From: Bodo saltans
Taxonomy: Eukaryota; Euglenozoa; Kinetoplastea; Eubodonida; Bodonidae
Reading direction: 5' to 3'
Length of the DNA stretch: 64,000 nt
Assembly (NCBI GenBank): GCA_001460835.1
Contig: CYKH01000459.1
Span: forward strand, 22,705 to 86,704
Position 1 is the stretch's first letter, and each line of letters opens with the position of its first letter. The notes beneath the pieces were generated by a model. It saw only the letters and a program-made list of their open reading frames with translations. It did not search any database and was not told the DNA's origin. The translations under genes were made by a program, and so were the position numbers. Below are positions 5,018-61,102 of this stretch, piece after piece.

Positions 5018-5050
5018 CTTCCCTCTCCTTTTTTTTTCGTGTGGAACTAG
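5018..5050 (+). promoter_or_regulatory. predicted trans-splice acceptor (polypyrimidine tract plus AG)
   Basis: A pyrimidine tract at 5018-5039 is followed by the first AG at 5049-5050, about 48 bases before the ATG at 5099. This is the usual kinetoplastid spliced-leader acceptor layout. The same element recurs in the second duplicate copy (AG at 5322-5323), before the ATG at 5372. Assignment is by pattern only. Confidence 0.45.
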
Positions 5051-5098
5051 AAAAAGACTAAACTATTACACATAGCAACAGCTACACACATCTTACAA

Positions 5099-5323: not shown

Positions 5324-5371
5324 AAAAGGACTAAACTATTACACATAGCAACAGCTACACACATCTTACAA

Positions 5372-35784: not shown

Positions 35785-38700
35785 ATGGAAACTGTTTTGC
35801 CCATTCCTCACGGCGACGAGCACGTCGGTGCTCAGCAGCCGCCTACTTCTATTTTATTGAATCACGAACACGAGTCGCAGCCACGTCGGCACAGCACCCC
35901 CAGTGCCACGCCAAGCAGGCGACAATACACTCCAAGCCCTTCCCGCACACCTGGTGGGGGACGCGAGGGCTCCGTGGGTGCTGGTACGCCCATCACCGCC
36001 GTCGTTCCTACCGCAGTGGCGCGTAGCCCAACATTCTTGCGCCCATCAAGCGTGTCGGAGTTCTCAATCCGTTATGCTCGTTACGGCCCCCTGTCTACCA
36101 CACTAGGAGAGGGACAGAATCCTGATGATAGCAACATGAGCAACCAGTCTATTCAGCCGAACACGGCGTTTATTGGTACTGTGGTGCAGCGTGTGCAGCC
36201 CGCAGCCCGCGGTGGGTGCGATGTGCGATCGTGCCATTACATCGCCGAGAATGTGCTGTTTATTACCTACCGTGATGGTAGCCTCGGCATGGTGGACACC
36301 CGTAGTGGGGAAGTCCTGGCCGTCACTACTCCTAGCGACACCTTGTGCACGACGGTGCTCGTTGCCCCGGCCACCTCCTTGGGCAGTGCTGTCGAGGAGC
36401 GTGTTGCGGCGGCACGACTCGACTCACTAGTGCTGTGGTGTGGGTTTACCGACGGCCAAATCCGTGTGATTGGCCCCCACCCCCATTGCCTTCAAGAAGA
36501 TCCCCTGTGCACACTTGTCCGCCATCACGGCCCTATTTCTTCCTTTGTGCATGAGCGAGGCAGTCATTTTGTATTCAGCGGTGCGCAAGACTTCACCATC
36601 GTGCAGTGGGACCTCACCACGCGTGCATTCATTGGACGATTCCATCATGGCGGCTCGACCGTCCGTGCCCTCGCCACTCGCGTCGATCGCTTGTTTAGCG
36701 GTGGCGACGACGGCACGGTGAAGATGTGGGACGTCGTCCAAAAGTCCAGCAGAGAGTGGACGGGCGGGTCACGCGCATCGATTACGCACATGGTGACTGC
36801 TGGGGATACGCTGTGGGGTGCCAGAGAAGACGGCACCCTCGATGTGTGGCGTGCAACGTCTGGGAAGCTGCTCGCCAGCATTCCGCTGTCCTCGCATGGA
36901 CCCATCACGCTGCTCCTTCGCGTTGGGCCTCGCATCTGGGCGAGTTCAATGGGCATCACTAGTGTCGTCGACATTGAATCCCGCCGAGTGATAGAAGAGC
37001 GACGAGATCATAACAGCAACTACGTGCAGTGCGCCGATGTGGTGGCGTCAGCAATGGTCAGCCGTGTGTGGATCATGCCGGTGGATGGGAGCGTTGTCGT
37101 CATGGACACTGAGACGCCCATCGGCGGCGATGAACTTGCGCTGGCCACGGCACTTGAGCGGCGAGAAGAGGAAGTCGTCTTTTTGCGTGAATCGATGGCT
37201 GCGCTGCAGACGCAAGCACTTGAACTCCAACGTCGATGCGACGATCGAGTTGCGCGTGCTCAACTAGAAGCGCTCAACATCAAGGATGAGCTTGAGCGCA
37301 AGGCGGCCACTGTGTCGGATCTGCATCAGCAACTGAACTCAACGATTGAAGAGCTGCACAAGCGTGAAGAACAACTAGCGGCAAAAGACGCAGGAGTCAC
37401 AATGACGTCCGAAGACTCCAACAAAAGCATTCGCAGAGTCATGACGAACCATCTTCAGGCCACGGAGAAGCGCTTGCTAGATGCTGAAATTAAAATTCAA
37501 GCGCTCAACGCTGAGCTGCTGAAAGAGCGCAACGTGAAAGAGTCCCGCATCAAGGAGACCCACGTGGAGGAGGCCGCAGCGTATGCAAAAGTCAATGCAG
37601 CATTGTCCTCAGCTGAGCTGCGCAGGAAGGAATTAGAAAAGCGCATTGAAGAGCTGCAAGATGCCTACCAACGCTTAGAAGTGGAACACAAGAATGTGAT
37701 TGAAACCAACGCCGACCTCACCGCCAAGCTTGGTATCTCGCGGCAGAAGATTGAAGACGCTCAGCAACTTGTCAATCAGCATGCTGCCCAGGTCAAGCAA
37801 TCTGCACGCGAGAAGGCGCAGCTCGCCGCAGTGGCACGATCCTTGAGGGAGGCGCAATCTTCCCCGTCGGTCAATGCACCAGTGACTTCATCCACCAGTC
37901 AAGCCCCTGCCACCAAGCCGAAGGATGCGCCTACTCCAACAAGTCCCATGTCAACGACCCAAAAGAAACGCAAGTCGATGCCCATTCCTATTCTGCCTGC
38001 GAAACCTCAACTCGAGAGATTGTTTAATTACGTCCGTACGGTGTGCACCGCGGCAGATACTCCATCGGACCTGCCCGCTAACATGCTGATGGCGTTGCGC
38101 TATGAATTATCTCGGCAGCAGGACCCCAGTCTTGACGATGTTGTAGTGGCCGCCGATGCCACACTTCCCGTGTCTGAGTATGATGTCTGCCAAGCGATCC
38201 CCAAGCTGGACCTTGGACTTGAAGTCCTCACCACGCAGCATCAGTACGCTCTCCTTCTCACTACGTTACAGTACTACGAGGAGCAGTGGCCTCAATGGTC
38301 TCGTGCGCAACAGGTAGACTGGGCGCAAAAGAAGGGCCTTTATCCGAGTATCTTATCGTTTGTTCGTGATGTGGAGCGGCTGTGCGCTAACTTCAATACG
38401 CTCGGCGCCCCGCGTAAGGATCGCATGGACAAAGCTGCTCGTCGAGCGGAACTGTTGAAGGCTAACGTGCGCAACGCCACGTCCCTCACACAAACAGAAC
38501 TCACATCATTGGTCGGCACACTGCCGCCTGCAATCGCACAACGTGCAACCCGGGAGTTGCAGGCGGGTTGGAAGAGGCTATCACACATGGCCCGTCGTGC
38601 TCTCGTGTTTGATGCAGCGGCGCCGTACGTGAACGACTGGGCTCTCCTTCGCTCCTCACAGCAGGCTGAATTATTTCAAGCACTCTTCACCGTCCCCGCG

Positions 38701-41700
38701 CCGGAAGAGCTTGCGGACTACATCAAAGACTTGTACACTAAACGTGAGCTCCCTGAAAGCTCCGTTCATTTGCTCCAATCCATCAAGATGATCGAGACCC
38801 AACCCACACTTGGTAACTTGCCACTGATTCGATTGATTGAGCATGGCCGCACGCGTTGTGTGCCCGATGTGGAAACTGCCATCCAGAATCAAGTAGTGAA
38901 TGCCCAAGCGGAACATTTATCAAGAGATCAACTCCATGCGTTGATGCTAGACTTCCACTTGCAGTACACAGATAAATACGACGGCCTCACATTCCACGAG
39001 GCGAGGCTCACAATGGAGTACACCGCACCTCGAATCGTAGTGCCCACTGCTGCGGTAGGGGAGTTGGGCAGTGGGGCCACAGAGAGCTCCGAGGTGGTGT
39101 ACAACGCAACCGCTGCTCGATGCGCGGACTGGGACACTCGCTCTACGGAAGCACAGTTGCAGTGGTTGAAACGCTTCTGTGAGTTCCCTACTCTCCTTTC
39201 CCTCCGACAACGCCTTCGTGCCATGTGGCCTCCTGTCAACCTCGAGCCGTACGCAGCAGCGCTGGTCACGTACAGCAACTCCCGTAAAGGGACGAATGCT
39301 AAAATGACATTGCAGACCGCCACACGCATGCTCGATCACTCCTACCATGTCCTCCCTGTAGACCTCCAACAATTCATCCTTCAGGAGACGTTCTTCCAGC
39401 ACATACCACCCGGCATCCCTCGCAACGCCGACACCATGGACCGCATCGCCACCTTCCCTGCGTTTGATACGTTGAAGGAGGAGATGAAGGAGTGGTGTGG
39501 TGGCGCTGTCGACCGCATCCCCCAGCACATTCGCGGGTACCTGATCATTGCCGTCATGCCGCCGTCTATTATCAACATGACGAGCCGATTAGAACTAGCA
39601 GAAAAGTTTGCCGGACAGTACCTCCCACCCATCGCAGAGGCCCTTCGTTACGGCGGAGGCTTTGACGGTCTTACTGGACAACTGCAAGACGCCGTCTTCT
39701 CCGCGATGCTCAGCTACTTTGTGCCAGGATGGGACGAGCGTACCGCTACCCAACAAGTAGACTACATTCGTCTCCACCGGCTGCATCGTAACGGTCCGTG
39801 GATGACGTTAGAGGACATTGTGGACTCCGCATCGGCTACCCTGGTGGCCTCAGCCCCCGACGTTCCGGTGACCACCTACTTCCCTACCCTTCGGGCAATT
39901 CTACGGGCTCATAAGCTAGATCAAATCGCAGCCACCAGCGCTCTCCCAGCCGCCGATGTGTCACTCTTGCCTCACATGAAGAAAGCATCCATTGCAACAG
40001 AGGGAGAGGGCCATCACGACGGCGATGGTAGCTTAGATTTTGGATCTCCTTCACGATCTGAGCTCTCACCACTGTCTGCTGGTGTCGACAAGGAAGTTCA
40101 AGCAACGCCGTATGACATTGATGCGTTAAGCCGCAGTGGCCTTAGCATGTCGATGCCCCTCTACATTTCACCCACGTCCACAGCGGCAGGTGGTGGTGTC
40201 AGTCACTCGGCGTACTACCGGCCGCAATCCCACCCGTCTTCCCTTGCACACACCGCCTCGGAATGCGGCATCCCTCTTCGAGATTTTATGCTTGCGAACC
40301 CGCATGTCAACGAACCGTATGAGCCCCTTCCCCAAGGCACGCCGATCTACTTCCCTACCATTGTTGGTGCGCACCAACAACCCTCCCCGCTGGATCCTGC
40401 CATGCTGCTGTCTCCTGCTGCCTTCGCCCAACAGCAACAGCCTGTGCAGCAGTACTACCAGGACGCATCGCAACAACAGCAGTACGTCCAACAGCAGCCA
40501 CAAATTCAATACATCCAGCAGCAGCAGCAGCAGCCGGCCACAATTTTCACGCTCGCAGATGTTGCTCGGCAGCACAATCTTGACGTCCATGCACTCCTTA
40601 AAGCGAACCCCACCATCACATCCCCAACGATGCCCATCCCGGCCACCACACAGGTCTACCTTCCACCCCGCACAGCAGTGTCGACCGTCGCTGAACTTGC
40701 ACGCCAATACAGCACTCCTGTCGAGTTGTTGCTCAACGCCAATCCAACTCTGAAGGGTGCCTCGGACCGTGTTTCAACATCACAGCGCATCGTGCTACCG
40801 CAAATACAGCAACAACAAATTCAGTATGACTTACCTGTCTCGCTCCAAGTTCAGCAGCAACAGATGCATTCTGCCCCAGCTCCGCTCACCCTTGCGGACT
40901 TCGCTCGCCAGCACAATGTTGACGTCAACGCACTCCTGAAGGCAAACCCTACGATTGCGTCGACCACTGCGCCACTCCCTCCAGCAACCCAAATTTACCT
41001 TCCTGCGCGCACAGCCCCCGCAGCAGTTGCTGACATCGCGCGCCAGCACGGCGTCCCTGTGGAGGACGTCCTTCGTGCAAACCCGACCCTCAAGGGTGCA
41101 ACGGACCAAGTTGCCCCAACCCAGCGCATCGTGCTACCACCTCAGCCGCAAGTGCAGTACATCCAGCAGCCGCAGTACGCTCAGCAGTCAGCCGTGCCTG
41201 TAACCCTGGCAGATATTGCCCGGCAGAACAACGTCGACATCAACGCGCTGCTCAAGGCAAACCCAACCATCGCATCGCCCACGGTGCCAATCCCCCCGAC
41301 GATGCAGGTGTACCTGCCTGCTCGCCCTGCACCAACCACCGTGGCTGACGTTGCGCGCCAGTACAACGTTCCTGTGCAGGAGCTGCTACGCGTCAACCCG
41401 ACACTGAAAGGTGCCACGGACCAAGTGGCAACGACGCAGCGCATTGTGTGGCCGCCGCCCCAACAACAACAACAGCCACAGATTCAGTACACGCAACAAC
41501 AACCTGGCCAGCAACAGGCTCAACCACAGGTGCAGTACGTTCAACAGCCTCAAGTGCAGTACGTGCAGCAACCCGGGCAACCACAAGTGCAGTACATCCA
41601 ACAACAACAACAACAGCCGCAGGTCCAGTTTGTACAGCAACAGCCCGGGCAGCTCGTCCAGCAGCAACCTGGATCCGCTCAAGTGCAATACGTGCAACAG

Positions 41701-43944
41701 CCACAACAATTACAGCCTGTCGGTCAGCATCAGTATGTCCAACAGCAGCCCATCGCGCTACAGACGCTAGCTGACATTGCCCGGCAGAACAACGTCGACA
41801 TCAACGCGCTGCTTAAGGCAAACCCAACCATCGCATCGCCCACGGTGCCAATCCCTCCGACAACGCAAGTGTGCCTGCCTGCTCGCTCTGCACCAACCAC
41901 CGTGGCTGACGTTGCGCGCCAGTATAACGTTCCTTTGCAGGAGCTGCTGCGCGTCAACCCAACGCTTAAGGGTGCCACGGACCAGGTGGCGACGACACAG
42001 CGCATTGTGCTGCCTCCACCCCAGGGCCAGCAACAGCAACAGCCACAGATTCAGTACGTGCAGCAACCTGGCCAGCAACAGGAACCCCAGGTGCAGTACG
42101 TTCAGCAGCAACAGCAGCCTCAAGTGCAGTACTTACAGCAACAACCTGGACAGCAGCAACCACAAGTGCAATACATCCAACAACAACAGGCCGTTGCTCC
42201 AACAACACTTGCAGACATTGCCCACCAGAACAACGTTGACGTTGCCACGCTGCTTAAAGCGAATCCAAACATCGCCTCCCCGACTACACCCATCCCAGCC
42301 ACAACACAGGTGTATCTTCCTGCTCGCCCCGCCCCCGCCTCCGTTGCTGACGTTGCGCGCCAGTACAACGTTCCTGTGCAGGAGCTGCTGCGTGTCAACC
42401 CAACGCTTAAGGGCGCCACGGATCAAGTTGCAATGACGCAGCGTATTGTTCTGCCTCCGCAACAACAGCAACAACAACAGCCACAGATTCAGTACGTGCA
42501 GCAGCAAAGCGGTCAGCAACAGCAACCACAGCTGCAGTACATCCAACAGCAACAACAACGGCCGCTGCAACCCCAACCTGCTGAGTACGTGCAGCAACCC
42601 CAACTGCAATATCTGCAGCAGCAGCAGCAGCAACCCCAGGTGCAGTACGTGCAGCAGCAACCACAGCGGAACCTGTTGATTCAACCGAACCAAACGCAGT
42701 TCCAACAGCCGCAGTACCAGCAGCAGCAGGTTCACTATGTCCAACAGCCGTATGCAACCCTGCCTCCAGCGGTGCACTACGCATACAATCCATCGCCGCA
42801 GCTGCAACAGGAGGATGTCGTCACGAATCCATATTACCAGGCGACAATGAGTGCCGATGAGTCCGCAGTAGCCGATGCCCTTCGCGTCGGCACTGACAGT
42901 GATGACGACGATGTCATGCCGGTTGTCATTCGTCGAGGAACTATGAACAACAACGGTGGTGGTAAGATCACTCGGCTCTCCAGTGATGGAGGGGACAGCG
43001 ATGACGACGACGCCATCCAAGGCTCCGTTCGTCTTATTCGTGACTCTGCGATGCCCCTTGTCGCGGTCACCCCCAAGGGTCACATTCGAGTGGATGCGCT
43101 CGCTTCCCACTTCTCCTGCGATGAGGCAACCCTTCGCCGCCTCAACCCAAAACTTGCGGATGAGGGCGTCGTCTCGGTTGGCCCTGAAGACACGATTATT
43201 GTCCCCCACGTGGATGCCCTCGCTGTCCCAGTCCCCATTCATCGTACGCCTGTTGTGTACACGGGCGGTCAAGTGGCCAGCCTTGAGGATCTCAGCCGAC
43301 TGATGTTTGGAGGGGAGGGAGACGATTCAGCTGTGCAACGCGGCGTGGGATGGCTCTTAGAGGCCAACCCAGTGCTAGCATCACAGCTCAACGAGCACGC
43401 CAACAAAGGACAGGCCCCACTTCCCGAAGGCACGCCTGTTGTCATTCCTCCACAGCTTGCGGCGGCAAGGCAGCGTAAGAATAGCGGCACGACAACCATA
43501 GTGCATCGCACAAGCGGCAACGCCGAGACGCTCATGTCCATCGGACACCGATACGGCGTTGCCCCAGAACATCTTGCTCGTCAATGCCCCTCTGCGGGAG
43601 GGCTTGTAGAGCCCCTTCGTGAGGGGGTAGAGCTGGTGATCCAGCGACAGAACTCTGAGGACGAGGACGGCTACCTTGCCTCCATCTACAAAGTCAACGT
43701 GGAGCGTGGCGACACGGCATCGTCTCTTGCAAAGAAGTTGGGCATCGATGTGCGTAAGCTCAAGCGCGCCAACGGTTGGGAGCACGACACTGACCCGGTT
43801 GCAGGCTCTGTCATCCACTTACCCGGCCTTGCGTCCTCTGATCGCTCTCACAGCACGGAGAGCAGCAATGCAGCAGGCGAGCCGTGGGCATCGGTGGGCA
43901 CTGTGCACCTCACGCGTCGCACAGATCGCCATACGTGCACATAA
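35785..43944 (+). CDS. giant WD40 / coiled-coil / Q-rich LysM-array protein, main part
   Basis: 2719 codons as read, continuing in another frame to 46903. WD40-like blades span residues ~128-445 (SGAQDFTIVQWDLTTR, SGGDDGTVKMWDV, REDGTLDVWRATSG). A long coiled coil is at ~450-692. A Pro/Thr linker and an unfamiliar helical region follow to ~1410. From ~1486, five pairs of LysM-like modules alternate with Gln-rich linkers (QVQYVQQP), preceded by one single module. Four more modules lie at ~2430-2682, the last canonical (VERGDTASSLAKKLGIDV). No signal peptide or membrane helix is seen, so these modules face the cytosol or cytoskeleton rather than a cell wall. The ATG at 35785 (METVLPIP) is the first in frame. 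Function unknown; a cytoskeletal or flagellar scaffold is a guess. Confidence 0.82.
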   Translation: METVLPIPHGDEHVGAQQPPTSILLNHEHESQPRRHSTPSATPSRRQYTPSPSRTPGGGREGSVGAGTPITAVVPTAVARSPTFLRPSSVSEFSIRYARYGPLSTTLGEGQNPDDSNMSNQSIQPNTAFIGTVVQRVQPAARGGCDVRSCHYIAENVLFITYRDGSLGMVDTRSGEVLAVTTPSDTLCTTVLVAPATSLGSAVEERVAAARLDSLVLWCGFTDGQIRVIGPHPHCLQEDPLCTLVRHHGPISSFVHERGSHFVFSGAQDFTIVQWDLTTRAFIGRFHHGGSTVRALATRVDRLFSGGDDGTVKMWDVVQKSSREWTGGSRASITHMVTAGDTLWGAREDGTLDVWRATSGKLLASIPLSSHGPITLLLRVGPRIWASSMGITSVVDIESRRVIEERRDHNSNYVQCADVVASAMVSRVWIMPVDGSVVVMDTETPIGGDELALATALERREEEVVFLRESMAALQTQALELQRRCDDRVARAQLEALNIKDELERKAATVSDLHQQLNSTIEELHKREEQLAAKDAGVTMTSEDSNKSIRRVMTNHLQATEKRLLDAEIKIQALNAELLKERNVKESRIKETHVEEAAAYAKVNAALSSAELRRKELEKRIEELQDAYQRLEVEHKNVIETNADLTAKLGISRQKIEDAQQLVNQHAAQVKQSAREKAQLAAVARSLREAQSSPSVNAPVTSSTSQAPATKPKDAPTPTSPMSTTQKKRKSMPIPILPAKPQLERLFNYVRTVCTAADTPSDLPANMLMALRYELSRQQDPSLDDVVVAADATLPVSEYDVCQAIPKLDLGLEVLTTQHQYALLLTTLQYYEEQWPQWSRAQQVDWAQKKGLYPSILSFVRDVERLCANFNTLGAPRKDRMDKAARRAELLKANVRNATSLTQTELTSLVGTLPPAIAQRATRELQAGWKRLSHMARRALVFDAAAPYVNDWALLRSSQQAELFQALFTVPAPEELADYIKDLYTKRELPESSVHLLQSIKMIETQPTLGNLPLIRLIEHGRTRCVPDVETAIQNQVVNAQAEHLSRDQLHALMLDFHLQYTDKYDGLTFHEARLTMEYTAPRIVVPTAAVGELGSGATESSEVVYNATAARCADWDTRSTEAQLQWLKRFCEFPTLLSLRQRLRAMWPPVNLEPYAAALVTYSNSRKGTNAKMTLQTATRMLDHSYHVLPVDLQQFILQETFFQHIPPGIPRNADTMDRIATFPAFDTLKEEMKEWCGGAVDRIPQHIRGYLIIAVMPPSIINMTSRLELAEKFAGQYLPPIAEALRYGGGFDGLTGQLQDAVFSAMLSYFVPGWDERTATQQVDYIRLHRLHRNGPWMTLEDIVDSASATLVASAPDVPVTTYFPTLRAILRAHKLDQIAATSALPAADVSLLPHMKKASIATEGEGHHDGDGSLDFGSPSRSELSPLSAGVDKEVQATPYDIDALSRSGLSMSMPLYISPTSTAAGGGVSHSAYYRPQSHPSSLAHTASECGIPLRDFMLANPHVNEPYEPLPQGTPIYFPTIVGAHQQPSPLDPAMLLSPAAFAQQQQPVQQYYQDASQQQQYVQQQPQIQYIQQQQQQPATIFTLADVARQHNLDVHALLKANPTITSPTMPIPATTQVYLPPRTAVSTVAELARQYSTPVELLLNANPTLKGASDRVSTSQRIVLPQIQQQQIQYDLPVSLQVQQQQMHSAPAPLTLADFARQHNVDVNALLKANPTIASTTAPLPPATQIYLPARTAPAAVADIARQHGVPVEDVLRANPTLKGATDQVAPTQRIVLPPQPQVQYIQQPQYAQQSAVPVTLADIARQNNVDINALLKANPTIASPTVPIPPTMQVYLPARPAPTTVADVARQYNVPVQELLRVNPTLKGATDQVATTQRIVWPPPQQQQQPQIQYTQQQPGQQQAQPQVQYVQQPQVQYVQQPGQPQVQYIQQQQQQPQVQFVQQQPGQLVQQQPGSAQVQYVQQPQQLQPVGQHQYVQQQPIALQTLADIARQNNVDINALLKANPTIASPTVPIPPTTQVCLPARSAPTTVADVARQYNVPLQELLRVNPTLKGATDQVATTQRIVLPPPQGQQQQQPQIQYVQQPGQQQEPQVQYVQQQQQPQVQYLQQQPGQQQPQVQYIQQQQAVAPTTLADIAHQNNVDVATLLKANPNIASPTTPIPATTQVYLPARPAPASVADVARQYNVPVQELLRVNPTLKGATDQVAMTQRIVLPPQQQQQQQPQIQYVQQQSGQQQQPQLQYIQQQQQRPLQPQPAEYVQQPQLQYLQQQQQQPQVQYVQQQPQRNLLIQPNQTQFQQPQYQQQQVHYVQQPYATLPPAVHYAYNPSPQLQQEDVVTNPYYQATMSADESAVADALRVGTDSDDDDVMPVVIRRGTMNNNGGGKITRLSSDGGDSDDDDAIQGSVRLIRDSAMPLVAVTPKGHIRVDALASHFSCDEATLRRLNPKLADEGVVSVGPEDTIIVPHVDALAVPVPIHRTPVVYTGGQVASLEDLSRLMFGGEGDDSAVQRGVGWLLEANPVLASQLNEHANKGQAPLPEGTPVVIPPQLAAARQRKNSGTTTIVHRTSGNAETLMSIGHRYGVAPEHLARQCPSAGGLVEPLREGVELVIQRQNSEDEDGYLASIYKVNVERGDTASSLAKKLGIDVRKLKRANGWEHDTDPVAGSVIHLPGLASSDRSHSTESSNAAGEPWASVGTVHLTRRTDRHTCT
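40240..42470 (+). repeat. coding array of paired LysM-like modules with Gln-rich linkers
   Basis: After one single module, five A/B pairs occur. A modules read like LADIARQNNVDINALLKANP and end near a YLP; B modules read like VADVARQYNVPVQELLRVNP and end near IVLP. Between pairs lie CAA/CAG-rich linkers of variable length. The pairs near 41200-41450 and 41760-42015 are almost identical, so the array has expanded or been homogenised by recombination. Confidence 0.85.
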
Positions 43945-46903
43945 CCCCTTCCTGGCTTATCACACAGGCCCGCTGTCGGTCAACCGCCGTGTCATTGTCG
44001 TCCGCGATCGAGAATCGCCGCAAGATGCTCCCCCTGCAAGCACGGAACCGTATCGGTACAAGGCTGCAGCAGGCGAACTCCTGGAAGACATTGCTACGAA
44101 GTTTGCCATCCCCATATCTGCGATTATGAGCGCCAACAAAGATGCCGCTCTGGACTTGGAGCACATGTGCGTCGGACCAGCCCAAGTGCTGCTGCTCCCC
44201 AACCTCTACTCCGGGAACAAAGTCGCCATACGTGCACATAACCCCTTCCTGGCTTATCACACAGGCCCGCTGTCGGTCAACCGCCGTGTCATTGTCGTCC
44301 GCGATCGAGAATCGCCGCAAGATGCTCCCCCTGCAAGCACGGAACCGTATCGGTACAAGGCTGCAGCAGGCGAACTCCTGGAAGACATTGCTACGAAGTT
44401 TGCCATCCCCATATCTGCGATTATGAGCGCCAACAAAGATGCCGCTCTGGACTTGGAGCACATGTGCGTCGGACCAGCCCAAGTGCTGCTGCTCCCCAAC
44501 CTCTACTCCGGGAACAAAGTGTTGAATCCTCTTCTCCGAGGCATGCGAGTGGAGGAGGCCGGGGCGAGCGACACCGCCATGACGATTGCCATTCGCACAC
44601 GAACACACCCAGACGCCATTCGGTACGCGAATCCGACCATCGTCGATGTCAACAAACCAATCCCCAAGGGGACCAAGGTCGTCGTGTTCGCCCCCAACGC
44701 TGACCGCCTTGGCTTCAGCCGAACAATGCTGCGCCAGGGCGATAGTGCAGATAAAATCGCGAGCCGCCACAATGTACCACTCGACGACGTGCGTGATGCG
44801 AACCCAGATGCCAAGTGGACACCGTTCGAATCCGTCCTCGTCCCTCCCTCCGTATCAAACCCTACCTTTAGGAGAATTCCCCCGCAGATTGGCTCCACCG
44901 TGGCCAGCGTTGCGGCGACATACCGCCTGAAGGTCGACGATTTGAAAAAGTGGAACCCGAGGTTGATCGCCTTGGATTCATCAGATGAAATTACATCTCG
45001 AGAGCCGCTGCTCATTCCCCTACGACGTGGCGCCGCCGCACTGCAGCAACACACGGTGAGCCCAATGCCATTGAACAGCTTTATGTCCACGGCAGGAGAT
45101 ACCCTTCAGCAACTCGCCGATCGTAGCGGCATTGACGTCGCCACGCTCTTACAGTGCAACGAGCACCTTCGTCTCCACCCCAACGCACCACTCCCCAGCA
45201 TGCAGCAAGTGTTCCTTCCGTCCAACGCTAGGTATGTGGACCCACGTGCTGCAGCGGCTCGAACGTCCCCGGGACGCGGGGGCCAGAAGAAAGCAGCGAC
45301 GACCACAGATGACGGCACCGCGACCTCAGTCACACTGCAACGGTACAATGTTCGCGAAGGAGATTTGCTGACCTCTGTGGCCCACCGCTTCGGAACCACA
45401 CCAGCACAAATCACGAAGCTCAACCCGTGCATCCGATCCAACGACTTGAAGCGAGATGCAGATGTCATTCTTCTCCCAGTCTCGTCGTCATCTTCGTCGG
45501 CTGCACGTGGACCACTAGCACTCGGAGGGCGAGCACCCAAGTGGAGCATCTCCGGGCCTGGCGACGCTGCCGCGCAAGATACCCATGCAGAGGGTGCAAG
45601 CGACAACAAGGCTTCCTCCGAATATGTCTATCACACACAGTCCCTGCGAGATGCTCTCCCCACTTCGGTTGGCATCTCCGACCTCGACGATGCCATCGCG
45701 GTGCACTTAGAGAACGCTGCCCGTGTGGACGACATCATTCAGCACCCTGAGCACTACACGAACGAAGCACTTGTGCAGGAACTGAAGCACATGCAGTCGC
45801 AGCACGAGGCCATGATCGGTGCCCTTCGCAACGGGGGCCTAGAAAACGCCAGCCTTGAAGCACGTTGTCGTGCACTAGAGGGGTTAGAGGACCGACGGGC
45901 GGAAGTGGAGTCCGATGAGGAGCAACGCCGCCACGTGGAAGCGTTGGAGCGTCAAGTGGCGACATTGTTGACAGATGCACAGGTGATTAAAACTCAGTCC
46001 GTGCAACGCGAATCGATGCTCCTCCTAGACTTCGAACGACGCTCCCAACGCCACGCCCGTGAAGTGGAGCGCAATGCAACGGAAGAGCGTGAACGGTGGC
46101 TGGCATTCCTACGATCTGCCCTCGCCGCAACGTCATCCGACAGAACTGCAGCGGCGACGTCCATCACAGAGGGCGGTACAAAGGCAATCATTGCGCAACT
46201 TGGGCTTGAGAATGGATCCGCGGTGAACAAAACTCTACAGTCGCTCATGATACACGATCGACCAGCTGGTCACACGAAACTCCCCCTTGAACTGATTCAA
46301 TTCCTCAACTTCAAGGACGAAGCGTGCTTTGCCCTTCAGTCGGACTTGGAGAACCAAGTGAATAAGACGTTAGAGCTGGAGGGAAGACTCAGTGCCATGC
46401 AAGCGGAGATGTACCGCCTGGACTACCTCCAAGCAAACCGCCCCGCACTTGTGAAAATGCTGTACGACTTGTACAAGGTTGCCAAGGGGATCGTGTCCAA
46501 AGCAAAGGGCTTCCGTGCCAAAGCGGAAGTTCGAGAACCAACACGCCGGTTGATCCTCGAGTGCATCGGTGACATCGAAACGCTTTGCAAGGAAATGCAC
46601 ATCGGTCACAAGTATATCGTCGGGAACTTCTTTACAGACGCTGAAGTGCGCCACTGTGGTGCAAGCCCAGCAGAGTTTGAGGAGCTGATCGTCACGACCA
46701 CCACCACAACAACGACCACATTCGTTATGAAGCAGCAATCTGGTGACCAAACAGCGAGCAAATCTCAACGAACCACTGGTGATGGGTCGCTGCCCTCCGC
46801 ACCTCCCCGGCCCTCTAGGGCGGGAAGTGTTGGGCCGTCGTCAACACGTCGAGTAGTGCCTACCAAAGTGCAATCTCTGGTCGAAGAGGTTCCCCTTTAC
46901 TAA
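43913..46903 (+). CDS. giant LysM-array protein, C-terminal continuation after frameshift
   Basis: This frame takes up where the previous one ends. It adds about six further LysM-like modules, one of them duplicated (YKAAAGELLEDIATKFAIPI twice). Others are MLRQGDSADKIASRHNVPLD, AGDTLQQLADRSGIDVATLL and the canonical NVREGDLLTSVAHRFGTTPA. A C-terminal coiled coil (EEQRRHVEALERQVATLL) and a helical domain (NRPALVKMLYDLYKVAKGIV) follow, then a Thr run and a Ser/Pro tail ending EEVPLY. There is no spacer, stop-free alternative start or splice acceptor at the join, so it is one gene with the upstream frame. The shift is one extra base somewhere in about 43880-43926. Confidence 0.8.
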   Translation, partial: RVAQIAIRAHNPFLAYHTGPLSVNRRVIVVRDRESPQDAPPASTEPYRYKAAAGELLEDIATKFAIPISAIMSANKDAALDLEHMCVGPAQVLLLPNLYSGNKVAIRAHNPFLAYHTGPLSVNRRVIVVRDRESPQDAPPASTEPYRYKAAAGELLEDIATKFAIPISAIMSANKDAALDLEHMCVGPAQVLLLPNLYSGNKVLNPLLRGMRVEEAGASDTAMTIAIRTRTHPDAIRYANPTIVDVNKPIPKGTKVVVFAPNADRLGFSRTMLRQGDSADKIASRHNVPLDDVRDANPDAKWTPFESVLVPPSVSNPTFRRIPPQIGSTVASVAATYRLKVDDLKKWNPRLIALDSSDEITSREPLLIPLRRGAAALQQHTVSPMPLNSFMSTAGDTLQQLADRSGIDVATLLQCNEHLRLHPNAPLPSMQQVFLPSNARYVDPRAAAARTSPGRGGQKKAATTTDDGTATSVTLQRYNVREGDLLTSVAHRFGTTPAQITKLNPCIRSNDLKRDADVILLPVSSSSSSAARGPLALGGRAPKWSISGPGDAAAQDTHAEGASDNKASSEYVYHTQSLRDALPTSVGISDLDDAIAVHLENAARVDDIIQHPEHYTNEALVQELKHMQSQHEAMIGALRNGGLENASLEARCRALEGLEDRRAEVESDEEQRRHVEALERQVATLLTDAQVIKTQSVQRESMLLLDFERRSQRHAREVERNATEERERWLAFLRSALAATSSDRTAAATSITEGGTKAIIAQLGLENGSAVNKTLQSLMIHDRPAGHTKLPLELIQFLNFKDEACFALQSDLENQVNKTLELEGRLSAMQAEMYRLDYLQANRPALVKMLYDLYKVAKGIVSKAKGFRAKAEVREPTRRLILECIGDIETLCKEMHIGHKYIVGNFFTDAEVRHCGASPAEFEELIVTTTTTTTTTFVMKQQSGDQTASKSQRTTGDGSLPSAPPRPSRAGSVGPSSTRRVVPTKVQSLVEEVPLY
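43927..44520 (+). repeat. perfect 297-bp in-frame tandem duplication (99 codons)
   Basis: Units 43927-44223 and 44224-44520 appear identical and each encodes one LysM-like module with flanks. The frameshift that separates the two parts of the giant gene lies just upstream of unit 1. Confidence 0.93.
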
Positions 46904-48168: not shown

Positions 48169-49461
48169 ATGAAGTTCGGAAAGCGTATGCAAGAGGAGAT
48201 GCTCGAGCACTGGGCAGCATACTATGTGTCGTACAAGCGTCTGAAGCAACTTTGTATCCGCTCACCGCTGAGGGGAGAACGCTTCACAACAGAATTATTC
48301 AAAGTGATTCGGGAAGAATTGAAAAAAGCCGAAGATCACTTCCGCACGCTCCTTGAGGAGCTGACTGTCCAGCACGATACGTTAGTGGCTTCAGAACAGC
48401 TGGACCGAGATTCGCCGGTCGCCCCTCGTGGCACCCCGCACAACTTTGCGGGCTCCTTCTTCCCCCAGCGGAAGTCGAAGCGCAGACATCATAAAAGCGG
48501 CGACGAAGCTCTTCAAGGAACCGAAATGACCAACGCCGCCGGCAACACGAGCATCACTGAGATCAACGCCTCATTCCCCGAAGGCAATAACTCTGGCTAC
48601 TCCAGTGTTGACAACGAACAACAACACGCCTCAGCCCCAAAGCCTTGGGAGAGAAATGAGGACGAGGGGTTATGTTCGAAGATCATGTCGCCTATGAAGA
48701 GCGTCTTCATGCGTATCATTTCCCAAAGCACACGTAGTGCGGAGGGAAGCGGGGATATTCGTGTGTTGCGCAGTCAGTTTATTGAGTGGTACGCCAGCGC
48801 CCATCGTCTAGAGCACTTTGCAGAGCTGAATCTTGAAGCATTGCGGAAAACGTTGAAAAAACTCGTCAAGCACCGTGGGGAGGAGGGTGACTTCACCAAT
48901 GCGGTGGAGGCAGAAATTGCCATGTCGCCACTCTCCACGCTTCTTCCTAAACTCCATCAAATGTCGACGATGATTTCCCAAGACTTTCACCGTCGGTTCG
49001 ATGAGCCCCTCGACATGTACAAAGACTTGGTCATGAACACCAAAGAGCAATGGCACGCGAAATGGCGATTTGTGCTGCTCTCCGCTATCGTGTTTGGTGC
49101 TGCCATGTCCTCGCCCATATTCGTGGAACACGCAGCGGCGCACAAGTGCTTTGCGTTGTTTGCGCTCGTGGTGACGATGTGGATCACCGAGGCGATCCCT
49201 TTCTTTTGCACTGCTATGCTCATTCCCATTGTGGCGGTGCCTCTTGGTATTCTGCGAGATCCAACATCCGGCGAGGTGGCGTCGCCTGTGATTTCTTCGC
49301 GTATCATGTTGTCCCACGTGTTTGATCACGTTCAAATTCTCGTGTTGGGCGGCCTCACCATCGCGAAGGCGCTCTCAAAGGTTCGACTAGAGGATGTTGC
49401 CGCATCATGGCTGCATGTATTCTGCGAGATCCAACATCCGGCGAGGTGGCGTCGCCCGTGA
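48169..49461 (+). CDS. PHO91-like: SPX-domain phosphate transporter (PHO91-like), N-terminal part
   Basis: An SPX domain opens at the ATG at 48169 (MKFGKRMQEEMLEHWAAYYV, YKRLKQLC). It closes with NLEALRKTLKKLVKHRG, whose Lys cluster is the inositol-pyrophosphate-binding surface in known SPX proteins. The insert between is Ser/Asn-rich. Transmembrane segments of the divalent anion:sodium symporter family begin at about residue 290 (FVLLSAIVFGAAMSSPIFV, WITEAIPFFCTAMLIPIVAV). PHO91 proteins move phosphate across vacuolar or acidocalcisome membranes; that location is inferred. The frame breaks at about 49417 because of a 170-bp duplication. Removing one unit gives one frame of 814 residues to 50783. 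Confidence 0.85.
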   Translation: MKFGKRMQEEMLEHWAAYYVSYKRLKQLCIRSPLRGERFTTELFKVIREELKKAEDHFRTLLEELTVQHDTLVASEQLDRDSPVAPRGTPHNFAGSFFPQRKSKRRHHKSGDEALQGTEMTNAAGNTSITEINASFPEGNNSGYSSVDNEQQHASAPKPWERNEDEGLCSKIMSPMKSVFMRIISQSTRSAEGSGDIRVLRSQFIEWYASAHRLEHFAELNLEALRKTLKKLVKHRGEEGDFTNAVEAEIAMSPLSTLLPKLHQMSTMISQDFHRRFDEPLDMYKDLVMNTKEQWHAKWRFVLLSAIVFGAAMSSPIFVEHAAAHKCFALFALVVTMWITEAIPFFCTAMLIPIVAVPLGILRDPTSGEVASPVISSRIMLSHVFDHVQILVLGGLTIAKALSKVRLEDVAASWLHVFCEIQHPARWRRP

Positions 49462-49586
49462 TTTCTTCCCGTATTATGTTGTCCCACGTGTTTGATCATG
49501 TTCAAATTCTTGTGTTGGGCGGCCTCACCATCGCGAAGGCGCTCTCAAAGGTTCGACTAGAGGATGTTGCCGCATCATGGCTGCAT
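49247..49586 (+). repeat. 170-bp head-to-tail duplication inside the transporter gene
   Basis: Units 49247-49416 and 49417-49586 differ at five positions, all third codon positions and all synonymous (Pro, Ser, Ile, His, Leu). The length is not a multiple of three, so the duplication shifts the frame. Confidence 0.93.
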
Positions 49587-55700: not shown

Positions 55701-56400
55701 CACCACGGCAACGTTGTTGTCGATGGTTGCAAGTTAGGATAGGGAGGCGGACTAGTTGGTTCGTAGTTAGGATAGGGAGGGGCGATGGATGCTCCAAAAC
55801 AACAATGTACAATCACATCAACTCGGCGATTTTATTTTCTTTTCTTGTTTTATTTTTGGGGGTCCACACTCGTGTTACCACTCCATTGTGTCTCAAGTGT
55901 GAAAGAAAACGCAGAATTCTCTCACTCTCACAGACCACGATACCCATACAGCATATTTACCCATAGAGAAATCTCTCTCATCCTTCATCTCATTCTCAGT
56001 TCATGCCTTCCGTATCCGCACCGTATATACCCTTAGTACGTGTTCAACCTCACCACGGCAACGTTGTTGTCGATGGTTGCAAGTTAGGATAGGGAGGCGG
56101 ACTAGTTGGTTCGTAGTTAGGATAGGGAGGGGCGATGGATGCTCCAAAACAACAATGTACAATCACATCAACTCGGCGATTTTATTTTCTTTTCTTGTTT
56201 TATTTTTGGGGGTCCACACTCGTGTTACCACTCCATTGTGTCTCAAGTGTGAAAGAAAACGCAGAATTCTCTCACTCTCACAGACCACGATACCCATACA
56301 GCATATTTACCCATAGAGAAATCTCTCTCATCCTTCATCTCATTCTCAGTTCATGCCTTCCGTATCCGCACCGTATATACCCTTAGTACGTGTTCAACCT
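55701..56400 (+). repeat. 350-bp head-to-tail duplication of the LRR gene's leader and first codons
   Basis: Units 55701-56050 and 56051-56400 appear identical. Each contains a leader with a long T-rich tract and the first 16 codons of the LRR gene. Each also has a smaller internal repeat of gttaggatagggagg about 34 bp apart. The spacer between the OB-fold-like gene and the LRR gene is otherwise gene-free. Confidence 0.92.
56003..56092 (+). pseudogene. truncated 5' copy of the LRR gene
   Basis: 29 codons starting MPSVSAPYIPLVRVQP, identical to the start of the LRR gene, then running into the duplicated leader and stopping. A by-product of the 350-bp duplication. Confidence 0.8.
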
Positions 56401-57837
56401 CAAGGCTTGTATCTGTACTTCTGCAAAGAGCTGGACCTCCATCCGAACAGCGGTGTTGTGGAGCGGCTCGCGAAAGTCTGCCTGCTGTGTGGCGTTGGTG
56501 CAGTGGGAGTCGACACACCTTCCTCGGCGGACACAACCACAGCACCGGAAGATCACAGTCACGACGATTCTACCGCCACGGAAGGAATTGTGGTGGTTGG
56601 TTGTGGTGACCGGGCTGTGGACTCCGATGCCCAGCAGCACACCATCACGCCGGATGTCAATTCGTCCCTCCCTGCTATACTCGCAGAAGATCGACACAAA
56701 AGTGATACGACGAACGCCACGGGTGCTCATCGTATGACAGGAGGGACTGGCGACACGGCACAACTCGCCACGATTGGCAACAACAACTCGTTATCCTCGT
56801 CCTCATCGCTTTGCGAGGGCTCAACAGATTCCATTCTCAACCTCTCTTCCAATTTCGTCGGCAGTGAAGGGCTTCGGCCACTGCTCCAAACAATCCGCGT
56901 CGTTCACTTTTTCACCAAGTTGGACCTTTCCGGCCACGGAGTGAACTCTGATGATGTGGCGGAAATAGTGAAATACTTGGACGGTGTGCACTCTCTTCGG
57001 TCCCTTGCACTGAATCAAAACCCCCGTATCACTCAAGCAGGCGGACGATACCTGAAACTGTTTGCTGCATCGAATGTCAATGTGAGCGACATTCAGGTAG
57101 ACGGCACCAGTATCACCCTTGCTCTCAAAAAAGTGATCTACGGGCTCTGCAACGCCAATCAAGCACTCCGCAAGAATCCTGTGTTGTACGAGGACAAAGC
57201 CCTGTGGCAACACCGCCGTCGCCACTCTGTTGGCATGATGGGATCATCCCCCCAGCCAACTCCAATGAAACGTGACAAACAACCTGTCTCGATATCTCCG
57301 CTTGCTTCGTCAAGGGGCGCCGGTGATGCCGCCGCAGCGGTGGGGCATGGTTCCGCTAGCCGCCAAGATAGCGCCAGTAGGGGGAACTCGACGGTATTGA
57401 TGTCTCACCCAGCAGCGGACGCACAACGTCAACCACCTGCTGTCATACTTCCTCCGTTCTATAGTGCCCCTTTCCTCCCTGCGCTACTGCATGCAGATGG
57501 TATCCTTCTGACAGGTGGTGGGGGGAGCAGCAGAGTCTCCCCTCCGGTAACCCCAATGCGCCCCACGAACATGTCCGCCCCAAGCAGCGAAGATGTCCTC
57601 CGGCGCGTGGGTGGGGGTGATGTCGCAGTGTCTGTCAGTCCTGCAGCAGTGGATCCTCTTGAAGGACCGTTGGAGGCCATCGACTACGTGTTCGCCTCTG
57701 CCCTTCCCCATTATATCAATGGGGGACAGCAGCAGCCACGTCACGCGAGCTCCCAACATGCAATCACTCGCGCAAGCCCGCATGACGAGTTTCCCGCTTT
57801 GCAGCTGCTGCGCGATGCAATGTATGATCTACAATAA
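56353..57837 (+). CDS. leucine-rich-repeat (RNI-like) protein
   Basis: 494 residues. LRR-type repeats at ~155-240 include LNLSSNFVGSEGLRPLLQTI, LDLSGHGVNSDDVAEIVKYL and LALNQNPRITQAGGRYL, the ribonuclease-inhibitor-like class. The N-terminal region and the C-terminal ~220 residues are Ser/Pro/Gly low complexity. The protein is a likely interaction scaffold; no catalytic motif. The segment YLYFCKELDLHPNSGVVERL near the start resembles a repeat flank. The true start is the ATG at 56353, since the upstream identical copy is truncated. Confidence 0.75.
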   Translation: MPSVSAPYIPLVRVQPQGLYLYFCKELDLHPNSGVVERLAKVCLLCGVGAVGVDTPSSADTTTAPEDHSHDDSTATEGIVVVGCGDRAVDSDAQQHTITPDVNSSLPAILAEDRHKSDTTNATGAHRMTGGTGDTAQLATIGNNNSLSSSSSLCEGSTDSILNLSSNFVGSEGLRPLLQTIRVVHFFTKLDLSGHGVNSDDVAEIVKYLDGVHSLRSLALNQNPRITQAGGRYLKLFAASNVNVSDIQVDGTSITLALKKVIYGLCNANQALRKNPVLYEDKALWQHRRRHSVGMMGSSPQPTPMKRDKQPVSISPLASSRGAGDAAAAVGHGSASRQDSASRGNSTVLMSHPAADAQRQPPAVILPPFYSAPFLPALLHADGILLTGGGGSSRVSPPVTPMRPTNMSAPSSEDVLRRVGGGDVAVSVSPAAVDPLEGPLEAIDYVFASALPHYINGGQQQPRHASSQHAITRASPHDEFPALQLLRDAMYDLQ

Positions 57838-58041: not shown

Positions 58042-59532
58042 ATGGTCCATAAGATCTGGGTAAAGAAACCAGGAGACCCAGATGACTGGGCGATTGGCAT
58101 TGTAGTGCAAGAGAGAACATCCACCATCGGAGATATCGTGGAGCATTGTAAAGGCATATTTCGAACCCCTCAAAAGGTGCGGGGGAGTGGTGTCATCCCT
58201 CCACAGGCATTGCGCACGAAAGACGGGCTTGTGCTGCACCCCGCCACGATGGCCGCATCGTGCAGTGGCTCCACTCTTGAGCTTATCTCTCTGCCTGTGA
58301 ACCGCCCGAAACAGAGCACAAGCTCGTTGGGGAACGTGACGCAGTCCACTGCCGCAGTCGGCTCGCATATGATCGTTCCTCCACTTGTATTGCCTGTGCG
58401 CCCGCACCTGGGCATCGGCGCACAGCGAACGATTCCGCTCGTGGATCATCATGGCAGTCACCACATTTCATCATCCTCCCCTAGCGCAGCGGCACAAGTT
58501 CTCCGATCCACAACCGCATCGCGGGTAGCAAGAACGAATATCCTTCCCCAGGCCACTCTCACTCTCCAACACAAGTCGGAGCAGCGCACTCAACAGTTGC
58601 GTGAAACAAGAAAGCAGATTGCACAAGCAGGCCAGCAGCATTCTTCACAAATCTTCCAACAACACCCAAGCATTCCTTCCTCGCCAGCTGCAGTCCCACG
58701 CTCAACGCCGCCGCCGTCTCAAGAAACAACAGTCCACCCCTCTGCATCTCCTGTTGTTGCACGGGCCGCTGCAACACCCCAGCAAAAGTTCCAACGCACA
58801 GAAGTTGATCGCACAAGACCAACAAGAACGCCGATCAGTCCCCAGCACAGCCATTCTGCTTCATCGGCACAAATCAACGACGAACATTACCAAAAACTGA
58901 CGTTCCACTCTCGAACACCCTCCTTCGCTTCCCCATCAGATCATCTCCGCAACGTTTCTCGTCCAGCACCCGTTGGACCACCACAAGGCCATCTGCAGCC
59001 CAACGCCACCACACCCGCTCCACAACCACAAACCCCCTCCACTATAACAACGACCCCACTCGTCCATAGTATCACCATACAACACCTTTGGCAAACAGTC
59101 TTATCAAAACACTCTGCTATCAACGCACCACTGCAACGCATTGCACAACAAAACACACCGCCCATCATAGCAGCACTCTGCAACAACGCGATACCCCACA
59201 ACCGCAGCACCTCCACCAAGCCCGACACACCTAGTATCACCAAAGAACTTGAGGCCAGCAGTGTTGCCGACGAGCTCAAACCAACCCACATCGCAGAGCT
59301 TGACGCTAATCGTATTGCAAACGACGCCGAGGCCAAGCGCGTTGCGGTGGAACTTGGGGCAAAGCGTATCACAGACGAGGCTGAGACCAAGCGTATTGCC
59401 GAGGAACTTGAGGCCAAGCGCATCGCAGCTGAACTCGAGGAAAAGCGTATTGCAGACGAGGCCGAAGCGAAACGCATCGCAGACGAGGCCGAGGCAAATC
59501 GTATCGCTGAGGTTGAGCTCCGTTTCGCATAA
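58042..59532 (+). CDS. ubiquitin-like N-terminus and charged 9-residue-repeat protein, first part
   Basis: The N-terminal ~90 residues (IWVKKPGDPDDWAIGIVV, ALRTKDGLVLHPATM, GSTLELISL) read like a ubiquitin-like beta-grasp, low certainty. Residues ~90-400 are Ser/Thr/Gln/Pro-rich and disordered. From ~405 a 9-residue repeat begins (AKRIADELE / AKRIADEAE), predicted to form a long charged single alpha-helix. The frame stops at 59530-59532, inside a 36-base segment (59513-59548) that is the base-by-base complement of the expected repeat. Without that segment the frame continues. The whole gene probably extends to 61102. Confidence 0.72.
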   Translation: MVHKIWVKKPGDPDDWAIGIVVQERTSTIGDIVEHCKGIFRTPQKVRGSGVIPPQALRTKDGLVLHPATMAASCSGSTLELISLPVNRPKQSTSSLGNVTQSTAAVGSHMIVPPLVLPVRPHLGIGAQRTIPLVDHHGSHHISSSSPSAAAQVLRSTTASRVARTNILPQATLTLQHKSEQRTQQLRETRKQIAQAGQQHSSQIFQQHPSIPSSPAAVPRSTPPPSQETTVHPSASPVVARAAATPQQKFQRTEVDRTRPTRTPISPQHSHSASSAQINDEHYQKLTFHSRTPSFASPSDHLRNVSRPAPVGPPQGHLQPNATTPAPQPQTPSTITTTPLVHSITIQHLWQTVLSKHSAINAPLQRIAQQNTPPIIAALCNNAIPHNRSTSTKPDTPSITKELEASSVADELKPTHIAELDANRIANDAEAKRVAVELGAKRITDEAETKRIAEELEAKRIAAELEEKRIADEAEAKRIADEAEANRIAEVELRFA

Positions 59533-59548
59533 CGTCTGCTCCGCCTTC
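59513..59548 (+). other. 36-base in-place complement of the local repeat
   Basis: Replacing each base by its complement without reversing the order (ttgagctc becomes aactcgag, and so on to the end) restores a perfect repeat unit of exactly the right length and frame. The reverse complement does not fit. Flanks on both sides are normal repeat. The segment creates the TAA at 59530. Confidence 0.9.
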
Positions 59549-60285
59549 CCAGACGCATTGCTGAGGAACTTGAGGCCAAGCGCATCGCTGAGGAACTCGA
59601 GGCAAAGCGTATTGCAGACGAGGCCGAGGCAAATCGTATCGCTGAGGAACTCGAGGCAAAGCGTATTGCAGACGAGGCCGAAGCCAGACGCATTGCTGAG
59701 GAGCTTGAGACAAAGCGTATTGCAGACGAGGCCGAAGCGAAACGCATCGCAGACGAGGCCGAGGCAAATCGTATCGCTGAGGAACTCGAGGCAAAGCGTA
59801 TTGCAGATGAGGCGGAAGCCAGCCGCATCGCAGATGAACGTGAAGCAAAGCGTATTGCAGATGAGGCGGAAGCGAAACGCATCGCAGCCGAGGCCGAGGC
59901 AAAGCGCATCGCTGAGGAACTTGAGGCAAAGCGAATCGCAGACGAGGCTGAGGCCAAGCGTATTGCCGACGAACTTGAGGCCAAGCGCATCGCAGATGAA
60001 CTCGAGGCCAAGCGTATCGCAGACGAGGCCGAGGCAAATCGCATCGCTGAGGAACTTGCGGCCAAGCGCATCGCAGATGAACGTGAAGCAAAGCGTATTG
60101 CAGATGAGGCGGAAGCGAAACGCATCGCAGCCGAGGCCGAGGCAAAGCGCATCGCTGAGGAACTTGAGGCAAAGCGAATCGCAGACGAGGCTGAGGCCAA
60201 GCGCATTGCCGACGAGGCCGAGGCAAATCGCATCGCTGAGGAACTTGCGGCCAAGCGCATCGCAGGCCAAGCGCATCGCAGATGA
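59533..60285 (+). CDS. charged-repeat protein, middle part
   Basis: A continuation in the same frame as the first part, made wholly of the AKRIADELE-type repeat. It ends at a stop at 60283 because of a 16-bp tandem duplication (60249-60264 and 60265-60280) that shifts the frame by one. It has no start of its own and should be read as an internal part of the gene 58042-61102. Confidence 0.65.
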   Translation, partial: RLLRLPRRIAEELEAKRIAEELEAKRIADEAEANRIAEELEAKRIADEAEARRIAEELETKRIADEAEAKRIADEAEANRIAEELEAKRIADEAEASRIADEREAKRIADEAEAKRIAAEAEAKRIAEELEAKRIADEAEAKRIADELEAKRIADELEAKRIADEAEANRIAEELAAKRIADEREAKRIADEAEAKRIAAEAEAKRIAEELEAKRIADEAEAKRIADEAEANRIAEELAAKRIAGQAHRR

Positions 60286-61102
60286 ACGTGAAGCAAAGCG
60301 TATTGCAGACGAGGCGGAAGCGAAACGCATCGCAGCCGAGGCCGAGGCAAAGCGCATCGCTGAGGAACTTGAGGCAAAGCGAATCGCAGACGAGGTTGAG
60401 GCCAAGCGCATTGCCGACAAACTTGAGGCCAAGCGCATCGCAGCTGAACTCGAGGCCAAGCGTATTGCAGATGAGGCCGAAGCCAGCCGCATTGCTGAGG
60501 AACGTGAGGCCAAGCGTATTGCCGAGGAACTTGAGGCCAAGCGCATCGCAGACGAGGCCGAAGCGAAACGCATCGCAGATGAACTCGAGGCCAAGCGTAT
60601 CGCAGACGAGGCTGAGGCCAAGCGTATTGCCGACGAACTTGAGGTCAAGCGCATCGCAGATGAACTCGAGGCAAAGCGCATCGCCGAGGAACTTGAAGCC
60701 AAGCGCATCGCAGATGAACTCGAGGCAAAGCGTATTGCCGACGAACTGGAGGCCAAGCGCATTGCTGATGAACTCGAATCAAAGCGGATTGCTGAGGAAC
60801 GTGAGGCAAAGCGTATTGATGAGGAACTTGGAGCCAAGCGCATTGCAGATGAACTTGAGGCAAAGCGTATCCTAGGGGACGCTGAGGCGAAGCCAACAGA
60901 TGTGGCTGTAGCAAAGCGCGGTGATGACGCCGCTGCAAAGCCTCTGGGAGCTTTCCAAGATCAACATTTGTCAGAAGATATGGAAAGGCGAGAAAGAGAA
61001 AAGGCTGAAGCGCAACGACGTCGTGCAGCGACTGTGGTGCAAAAACCGGCCAGCTTACTTTCCAAAGCACCACCTTCAGCGTCATACTTTCAAGAATTCT
61101 AG
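60266..61102 (+). CDS. charged-repeat protein, C-terminal part
   Basis: The repeat continues here in the shifted frame to about 60890, then a unique tail (DMERREREKAEAQRRRAATV) ends SASYFQEF. The sequence downstream turns directly into the HSP70 leader region. The earlier portion of this frame (from 59249) is an Arg/Ser/Gln-rich shadow of the repeat and is not protein-like. Confidence 0.68.
   Translation, partial: AKRIADEREAKRIADEAEAKRIAAEAEAKRIAEELEAKRIADEVEAKRIADKLEAKRIAAELEAKRIADEAEASRIAEEREAKRIAEELEAKRIADEAEAKRIADELEAKRIADEAEAKRIADELEVKRIADELEAKRIAEELEAKRIADELEAKRIADELEAKRIADELESKRIAEEREAKRIDEELGAKRIADELEAKRILGDAEAKPTDVAVAKRGDDAAAKPLGAFQDQHLSEDMERREREKAEAQRRRAATVVQKPASLLSKAPPSASYFQEF

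Follow-up and report, generated by a model that had tools for sequence, protein, structure and literature searches.

What an array of LysM modules does inside a protein that opens with a WD40 propeller, followed by a coiled coil, is the question raised by an 11-kb locus in the 64-kb stretch of Bodo saltans DNA analysed here (hereafter, the window). Two answers had been offered in a preliminary description of this DNA, namely that the protein is an intracellular sensor of wall fragments, or that LysM has been reused as a cytoskeletal spacer. The reading frames, the modules and their fold, the remaining domains, and the other LysM and WD40 genes of the genome are considered in turn below, together with described proteins to which the gene product can be likened.

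The locus and its frame break

The focal gene is read in two coding pieces (Table 1). Frame 0 stops at 43944 and coding resumes at about 43926 in frame +1 up to the stop at 46903, the break being located at an exact 297-bp tandem duplication. Because this duplication spans LysM sequence, one module is doubled; with the duplicate left out, the two pieces combined amount to approximately 3,600 residues. The protein size given in the preliminary description is therefore retained (duplicate excluded), while the frame break and the duplication had been missed.

The duplication and the frame break are probably an assembly fault, which is likelier than an intron or decay given that comparable duplications occur elsewhere in the window, one of them splitting another gene. 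Seven two-copy tandem duplications with a period of at least 100 bp and an identity of at least 96% were found in the 64 kb, with periods of 273, 132, 297, 170, 350, 136, and 184 bp, and all seven probably arose as assembly faults. The 170-bp duplication at 49247 breaks an SPX-domain gene into two frames with a common peptide; in Pfam, these frames gave an SPX match and a weak symporter match below the cut-off. An intron at 43926 is not favoured, introns being very rare in kinetoplastids, and nothing was found in support of a programmed frameshift at the junction. Further along the window, a 27- to 81-base unit of the type EAKRIADEL is repeated imperfectly in tandem over about 1.5 kb of a long frame at 59249-61102.

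A graver fault would be one in which the 11-kb reading is itself an assembly product, with two neighbouring genes or two alleles misjoined at 43926. The coincidence of the frame break with an exact 297-bp duplication speaks for such a misjoin, and the near-identical duplications of at least 100 bp in the window, one of which breaks another gene, point in the same direction; however, Pfam-supported LysM modules flank the junction on both sides (slices 15 and 17), and piece 2 starts in what seems by eye to be the latter half of a module (slice 16, with no Pfam LysM match and E=1.6 against the module profile described below). A misjoin is judged very improbable as an account of the gene. The domain order of WD40, coiled coil, and A/B array, with its ten modules, is in any case independent of the junction, since all of it falls without interruption within the first frame.

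Table 1. Coordinates of the focal gene, its parts, the tandem duplications of the window, and the other LysM genes of the genome.
Feature	Position	Strand	Remarks
First coding piece	35785..43944	+	2,719 codons from ATG; stop within first 297-bp copy
WD40 beta-propeller	36214..37095	+	Pfam, PDB WD40 matches; extent by alignment with paralogue C526
N-terminal coiled coil	37117..37884	+	Residues 445-700, directly after propeller; heptad test
Middle region, about 600 residues, family unassigned	38167..39984	+	Probably helical, by eye
Divergent LysM-like module 1	40186..40374	+	Phage_tail_X only, E=7e-4, under its cut-off
Five LysM A/B pairs, glutamine-rich linkers between	40501..42465	+	Pfam, repeats, dN<dS, model
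Modules 12 to 15	43036..43833	+	Only module 15 (43666-43833) with its own Pfam LysM match
Second coding piece	43925..46903	+	Frame +1 relative to first; 992 codons and stop
297-bp tandem duplication, first copy	43926..44222	+	At frame break; contains slice 16 and module 17
297-bp tandem duplication, second copy	44223..44519	+	Identical to first
Modules 18 to 22	44525..45514	+	Single-slice PF01476 match in 4/5
C-terminal charged region	45767..46714	+	Probably helical, by eye; weak match to C15 C-terminus
Seven tandem duplications of the window	4943-5485, 5689-5955, 43926-44520, 49247-49586, 55701-56402, 61115-61385, 61326-61693
uS10m gene with LysM modules	L009:6420-8921 (contig C813)
VPS41-type HOPS subunit gene	L014:5420-8757 (contig C264)		Two overlapping frames
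LysM and cyclase gene	L012:3861-9991 and L013 (contig C208)		One 3,030-codon frame
Multi-LysM gene	L010:4569 to L011:845 (contig C450)		2,092-codon frame

Number and authenticity of the LysM modules

PF01476 (LysM) matched the whole pieces with E=1.6e-50 for piece 1 and E=5e-28 for piece 2. Twenty-two non-duplicate LysM-like slices were cut and each was scanned singly against Pfam, whereupon 16 matched PF01476 (E from 4e-8 to 0.011) and six exceeded the curated cut-off. All ten A/B slices were among the matches, three of them over the cut-off, and no LysM match was obtained in Pfam for slices 12, 13, 14, 16, and 18 when scanned alone. Both modules that had been singled out as canonical, at about 43685 and 45340, are genuine by this measure (slice 43666-43833, E=4e-8; slice 45302-45514, E=1.5e-6). 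The module-by-module profile search suggested at the outset did return LysM; the count of about 21 modules survives as an upper figure, the firm figure being 16, and one copy had been counted twice through the duplication. When compared with PDB sequences, piece 2 gave four matches at E<=0.1, with LytE at E=7e-5 and Ecp6 at E=5e-4. A TLD domain was absent among the Pfam matches listed for either piece (down to E=0.24 for piece 1).

The A/B region contains a 300-nt repeat, the copies of which are 68-86% identical in DNA to a reference copy, and linkers of variable length. In all 20 within-A and within-B comparisons dN was lower than dS (dN 0.02-0.27; dS 0.31-2.6, two values being saturated), from which it follows that the A/B modules have been maintained by selection as protein. 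A module profile was also built from 11 seed modules, including five from the focal gene and five from the multi-LysM gene C450; its matches on the modules of these two genes are circular because the seeds were taken from them, and the counts given here accordingly rely on Pfam. The A/B pair gave 185 pattern matches in a bacterial contig set (genome_contigs) and the WD40 part gave five in viral_contigs, none of which was confirmed; as both searches are sensitive to close relatives only, these null results argue only against a recent transfer from bacteria or viruses.

Fold and ligand loop

Three modules (an A, a B, and canonical module 15) were predicted to adopt the beta-alpha-alpha-beta LysM fold, and their models had solved LysM domains as their best alignments. 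The structure prediction of an A/B pair, another check put forward earlier, likewise yielded a model that aligns to LysM structures. In the A/B alignment, the single modules all fell on the A half, which leaves five rows behind the B half of that model. Included among the solved matches listed for the module model was the human LysM protein SB145 (2djp), which we take to be a cytosolic LYSMD protein with one module and no WD40.

The loop G-[DES]-[TSL] lines the sugar groove and is a feature of wall-binding LysM. It is retained in six late modules (15, 17, and 19-22) and missing from 10/10 A/B modules, such that two kinds of ligand are possible; judging from the sequence, sugar binding by the A/B modules may still be compatible with the absence of the loop.

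These observations bear directly on the proposal of a cytosolic sensor, whose array would bind muropeptides or chitin oligomers derived from ingested wall fragments and whose propeller would pass the signal on. Peptidoglycan- and chitin-binding LysM domains do feature among the best solved neighbours of the module models, the sequence of piece 2 matches wall-binding LysM, LytE and Ecp6 among them, and avidity would be gained from the many copies, six of which have the loop. On the other hand, a ligand is not revealed by the fold, the ten A/B modules are devoid of the loop, and no known signalling domain is present among the Pfam families listed for the focal pieces. Furthermore, uS10m and VPS41, both of which have LysM-bearing counterparts in this genome (see below), have known functions that involve no wall ligand. 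With positive evidence that ends at the fold and A/B modules that lack the loop, the sensor offered as one option in the preliminary description appears distinctly improbable.

Domains outside the array

The propeller is supported by PF00400 (WD40; E=1.6e-6, over the cut-off), with other propeller profiles remaining under theirs, and by PDB sequences, where the best match was Tako8 (E=5e-22), presumably a designed propeller, and the best other reached 9e-10. Immediately downstream, the fraction of high-scoring heptad windows in residues 445-700 was equalled by 0/200 shuffles, as compared with 129/200 for the propeller, 12/200 for the middle region, and 19/200 for the LysM stretch, while the C-terminal stretches were not above shuffles (89/200 and 61/200 reach them). 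The heptad test is self-made and crude, and by its mean measure the LysM stretch (residues 2400-2690) also scored 0/200 and the middle 3/200. Taken from Pfam, PDB sequences, and the heptad test, the order first read from the DNA, in which LysM modules follow a WD40 domain and a coiled coil, is confirmed.

For the middle region, the best PDB sequence match stood at E=1.4, a genome search at E<=1 gave no further copy, and none of the best Pfam stretches listed falls in it. The best 19-residue Kyte-Doolittle means were 1.26 for piece 1 and 1.19 for piece 2, and hydropathy revealed neither a signal-like core at the N-terminus nor a stretch hydrophobic enough for a transmembrane helix. The earlier remark that no signal peptide is visible is thus borne out by hydropathy. 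The Pfam families listed for the focal pieces include no lipid- or Rab-binding domain.

When the propeller and coiled coil were used as a query against the genome, 19 matches were returned at E<=0.001, the query included, and the five best other genes with the same propeller were C526, C15, C173, C682, and C797; in an 11-sequence set, the full-sequence E values of the propeller paralogues ranged from 1.1e-24 to 1.5e-15. By eye, C15 (862-codon frame) and C682 (3,382-codon frame) continue from the propeller into long charged helical stretches. The C-termini of the focal protein and C15 matched with E=2e-6 in a single comparison over some 35 residues, the best of 2,500 shuffles having reached 2.6e-4. 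This match is missing in the other four of the five paralogues compared, and genome-wide searches with the focal or the C15 C-terminus each returned only the query itself. The focal gene may plausibly have arisen from a WD40/coiled-coil protein to which the middle and LysM parts were added.

Other LysM genes of the genome

A LysM profile search of the genome contigs gave at least eight matches at E<=0.001 on at least five contigs, distributed over five genes including the focal one. The gene on C813 encodes uS10m, five of the ten PDB sequences listed for it being mitoribosomal uS10m, near full-length at 1,107-1,122 bits. The uS10m proteins of kinetoplastid mitoribosomes (PDB 6hiv_CJ, 6sg9_CJ, 7aor_e, and 7ane_e) comprise 817-822 residues, and since such relatives have been solved in trypanosome mitoribosomes, at least this ribosomal LysM is an intracellular module of the genome. 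In contrast to the focal protein, uS10m is mitoribosomal, its full-length relative is C813, and no WD40 occurs in the Pfam list of C813; conversely, no uS10m was found among the best 60 of 75 PDB matches of focal piece 1 or all four of piece 2.

The multi-LysM gene on C450 (LysM E=7e-42) holds about 12 modules by the partly circular module profile, shows a PDZ match at its C-terminus that stays under the cut-off (E=7e-4), and gave no PDB sequence match at E<=0.01. On the same contig (L010:1-3616), a multi-repeat gene that appears PAS-like by eye is read in two frames with an identical stretch, a break of the duplication type. In Pfam, a further gene (C208) combines LysM at E=6e-16 with a nucleotidyl cyclase domain of class III at E=8e-29, alongside coiled-coil-like stretches by eye.

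Finally, the first frame of the VPS41-type gene (C264) comprises a VPS41 propeller (E=3e-53) and a TPR region, and in the second frame LysM (E=9e-7) lies between a TPR end and a RING-like end, both below the cut-off; this LysM resembles that of uS10m (E=8e-5). The gene lends some substance to a second alternative, in which the focal array would, as an endomembrane tether, bridge vesicles or phagosomes with the cytosolic machinery. WD40 domains together with helical regions are common in tethers, a combination that the focal protein would share, but hydropathy shows no transmembrane segment, the listed Pfam families include none that would bind lipids or Rab proteins, and a tether is judged unlikely.

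Comparison with described proteins

No description of a WD40/coiled-coil/multi-LysM protein was found in the titles, abstract beginnings, and selected passages of the literature searched, and the assertion that no described protein has such a domain order holds within that body of text. Passages of PMC4046975 and PMC9117871 describe no such protein either, and the “LysM” of PMC10899635 and PMC3814429 denotes, in the passages concerned, mouse LysM-Cre lines as opposed to LysM-domain proteins of interest.

Among T. brucei flagellum attachment zone (FAZ) proteins, FAZ16 (Tb927.5.3460) is a LysM-domain entry in the passages of PMC4827413. It was located in the flagellar groove, and its deletion led to growth and cytokinesis defects, according to passages of PMC9826329. 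FAZ16 is like the focal protein in bearing LysM, and the FAZ is cytoskeletal (PMC4827413 and PMC9826329, in part); it is unlike it in being a 57-kDa protein with LysM as its sole listed domain, as compared by description only. By reciprocal best BLAST, the same passages of PMC9826329 report FAZ16 in Trypanosoma species only, with Bodo saltans in the set, and given this restriction, kinship with the focal gene beyond the module is not required.

The L. infantum protein A4HWW7, with tandem LysM and a predicted LIR motif, is discussed in terms of cytoplasmic sensing in passages of PMC10903960, where its ligand is held to be unclear; such a discussion would lend a measure of support to the sensor weighed above. 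It resembles the focal protein in its tandem LysM and kinetoplastid origin (compared by description only), and our guess is that it is perhaps nearer to gene C450 than to the focal gene.

With regard to the N-terminal half, the T. brucei hook-complex protein Tb927.10.850 was reported to contain five WD40 repeats and seven coiled coils in the passages of PMC4695855. It shares with the focal protein the WD40 and coiled coils and is a flagellum-associated cytoskeletal protein, but differs in its size of 168 kDa and in that LysM is not listed, again as compared by description only. Passages of PMC12239596 describe WDR2, which is specific to kinetoplastids and carries its WD40 domain at the C-terminus, as recruiting a kinesin to the centrin arm.

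The earlier statement that LysM normally occurs outside cells is hence too strong for kinetoplastids in view of uS10m, the VPS41-type gene, and, from the passages cited, FAZ16. Intracellular LysM is already documented in kinetoplastids, and the focal protein is unusual in its scale and order while being built of known modules.

A proposed giant intracellular scaffold

On balance, we lean towards a giant intracellular scaffold in which the LysM array is multivalent for protein binding or spacing, and not for cell-wall binding. The WD40 propeller and the coiled coil would dock and multimerise the protein in a cytoskeletal or similar assembly, a docking role that is assumed likewise for the related WD40 proteins of the same genome. 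The C-terminal half, with approximately 20 LysM modules of which ten are carried on flexible glutamine-rich linkers, would then present a small binding face repeated many times.

The location, the scaffold role, and the preference for protein over sugar ligands are inferred from several converging lines: the LysM assignment by Pfam and models, dN<dS in 20/20 comparisons, the lack of a signal peptide or transmembrane segment by hydropathy, and the association of WD40 with a coiled coil. The five genes that share the propeller, two of which (C15 and C682) run on into charged helical stretches by eye, are consistent with such a scaffold, as is the C-terminal match to C15, which is the only one among the five paralogues and is better than that of 2,500 shuffles. 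Intracellular precedents for LysM are provided by uS10m in the mitoribosome, the VPS41-type gene, and, in the passages cited above, FAZ16 in the FAZ, with Tb927.10.850 as the WD40/coiled-coil precedent; by precedent, therefore, the idea of LysM reused as a cytoskeletal spacer gains ground.

Several features sit less comfortably with a scaffold. The middle 600 residues are left unexplained by it, the C15 match covers only about 35 residues and is not seen in four paralogues or in genome-wide searches, and the coiled coil was assigned with a crude test in which the LysM stretch also reached 0/200 by the mean measure. Six late modules keep a loop of the wall-binding type, and the solved structures nearest to the models are those of wall-sugar binders. 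FAZ16 is, moreover, confined to Trypanosoma species in the passages of PMC9826329, with Bodo saltans in the set.

Should the array bind sugars instead, Bodo saltans would represent a bacteria-eating protist with a cytosolic wall sensor. The number of its modules would exceed that of any known to us. There is, in our judgement, an even chance that kinetoplastids have converted LysM, a binder of wall sugars, into a general module for protein interactions within the cell. It would serve as such in the mitoribosome, in proteins of the HOPS and cyclase types, and in scaffolds of giant size, and among the uses seen the WD40-anchored focal gene, with its roughly 20 modules, would be the extreme. Provided that the array is intracellular and protein-binding, LysM would join those modules whose ligand changed on moving inside the cell, and if such a change of ligand is true, kinetoplastids would give several cases of it, one of which, in the mitoribosome, is already solved.
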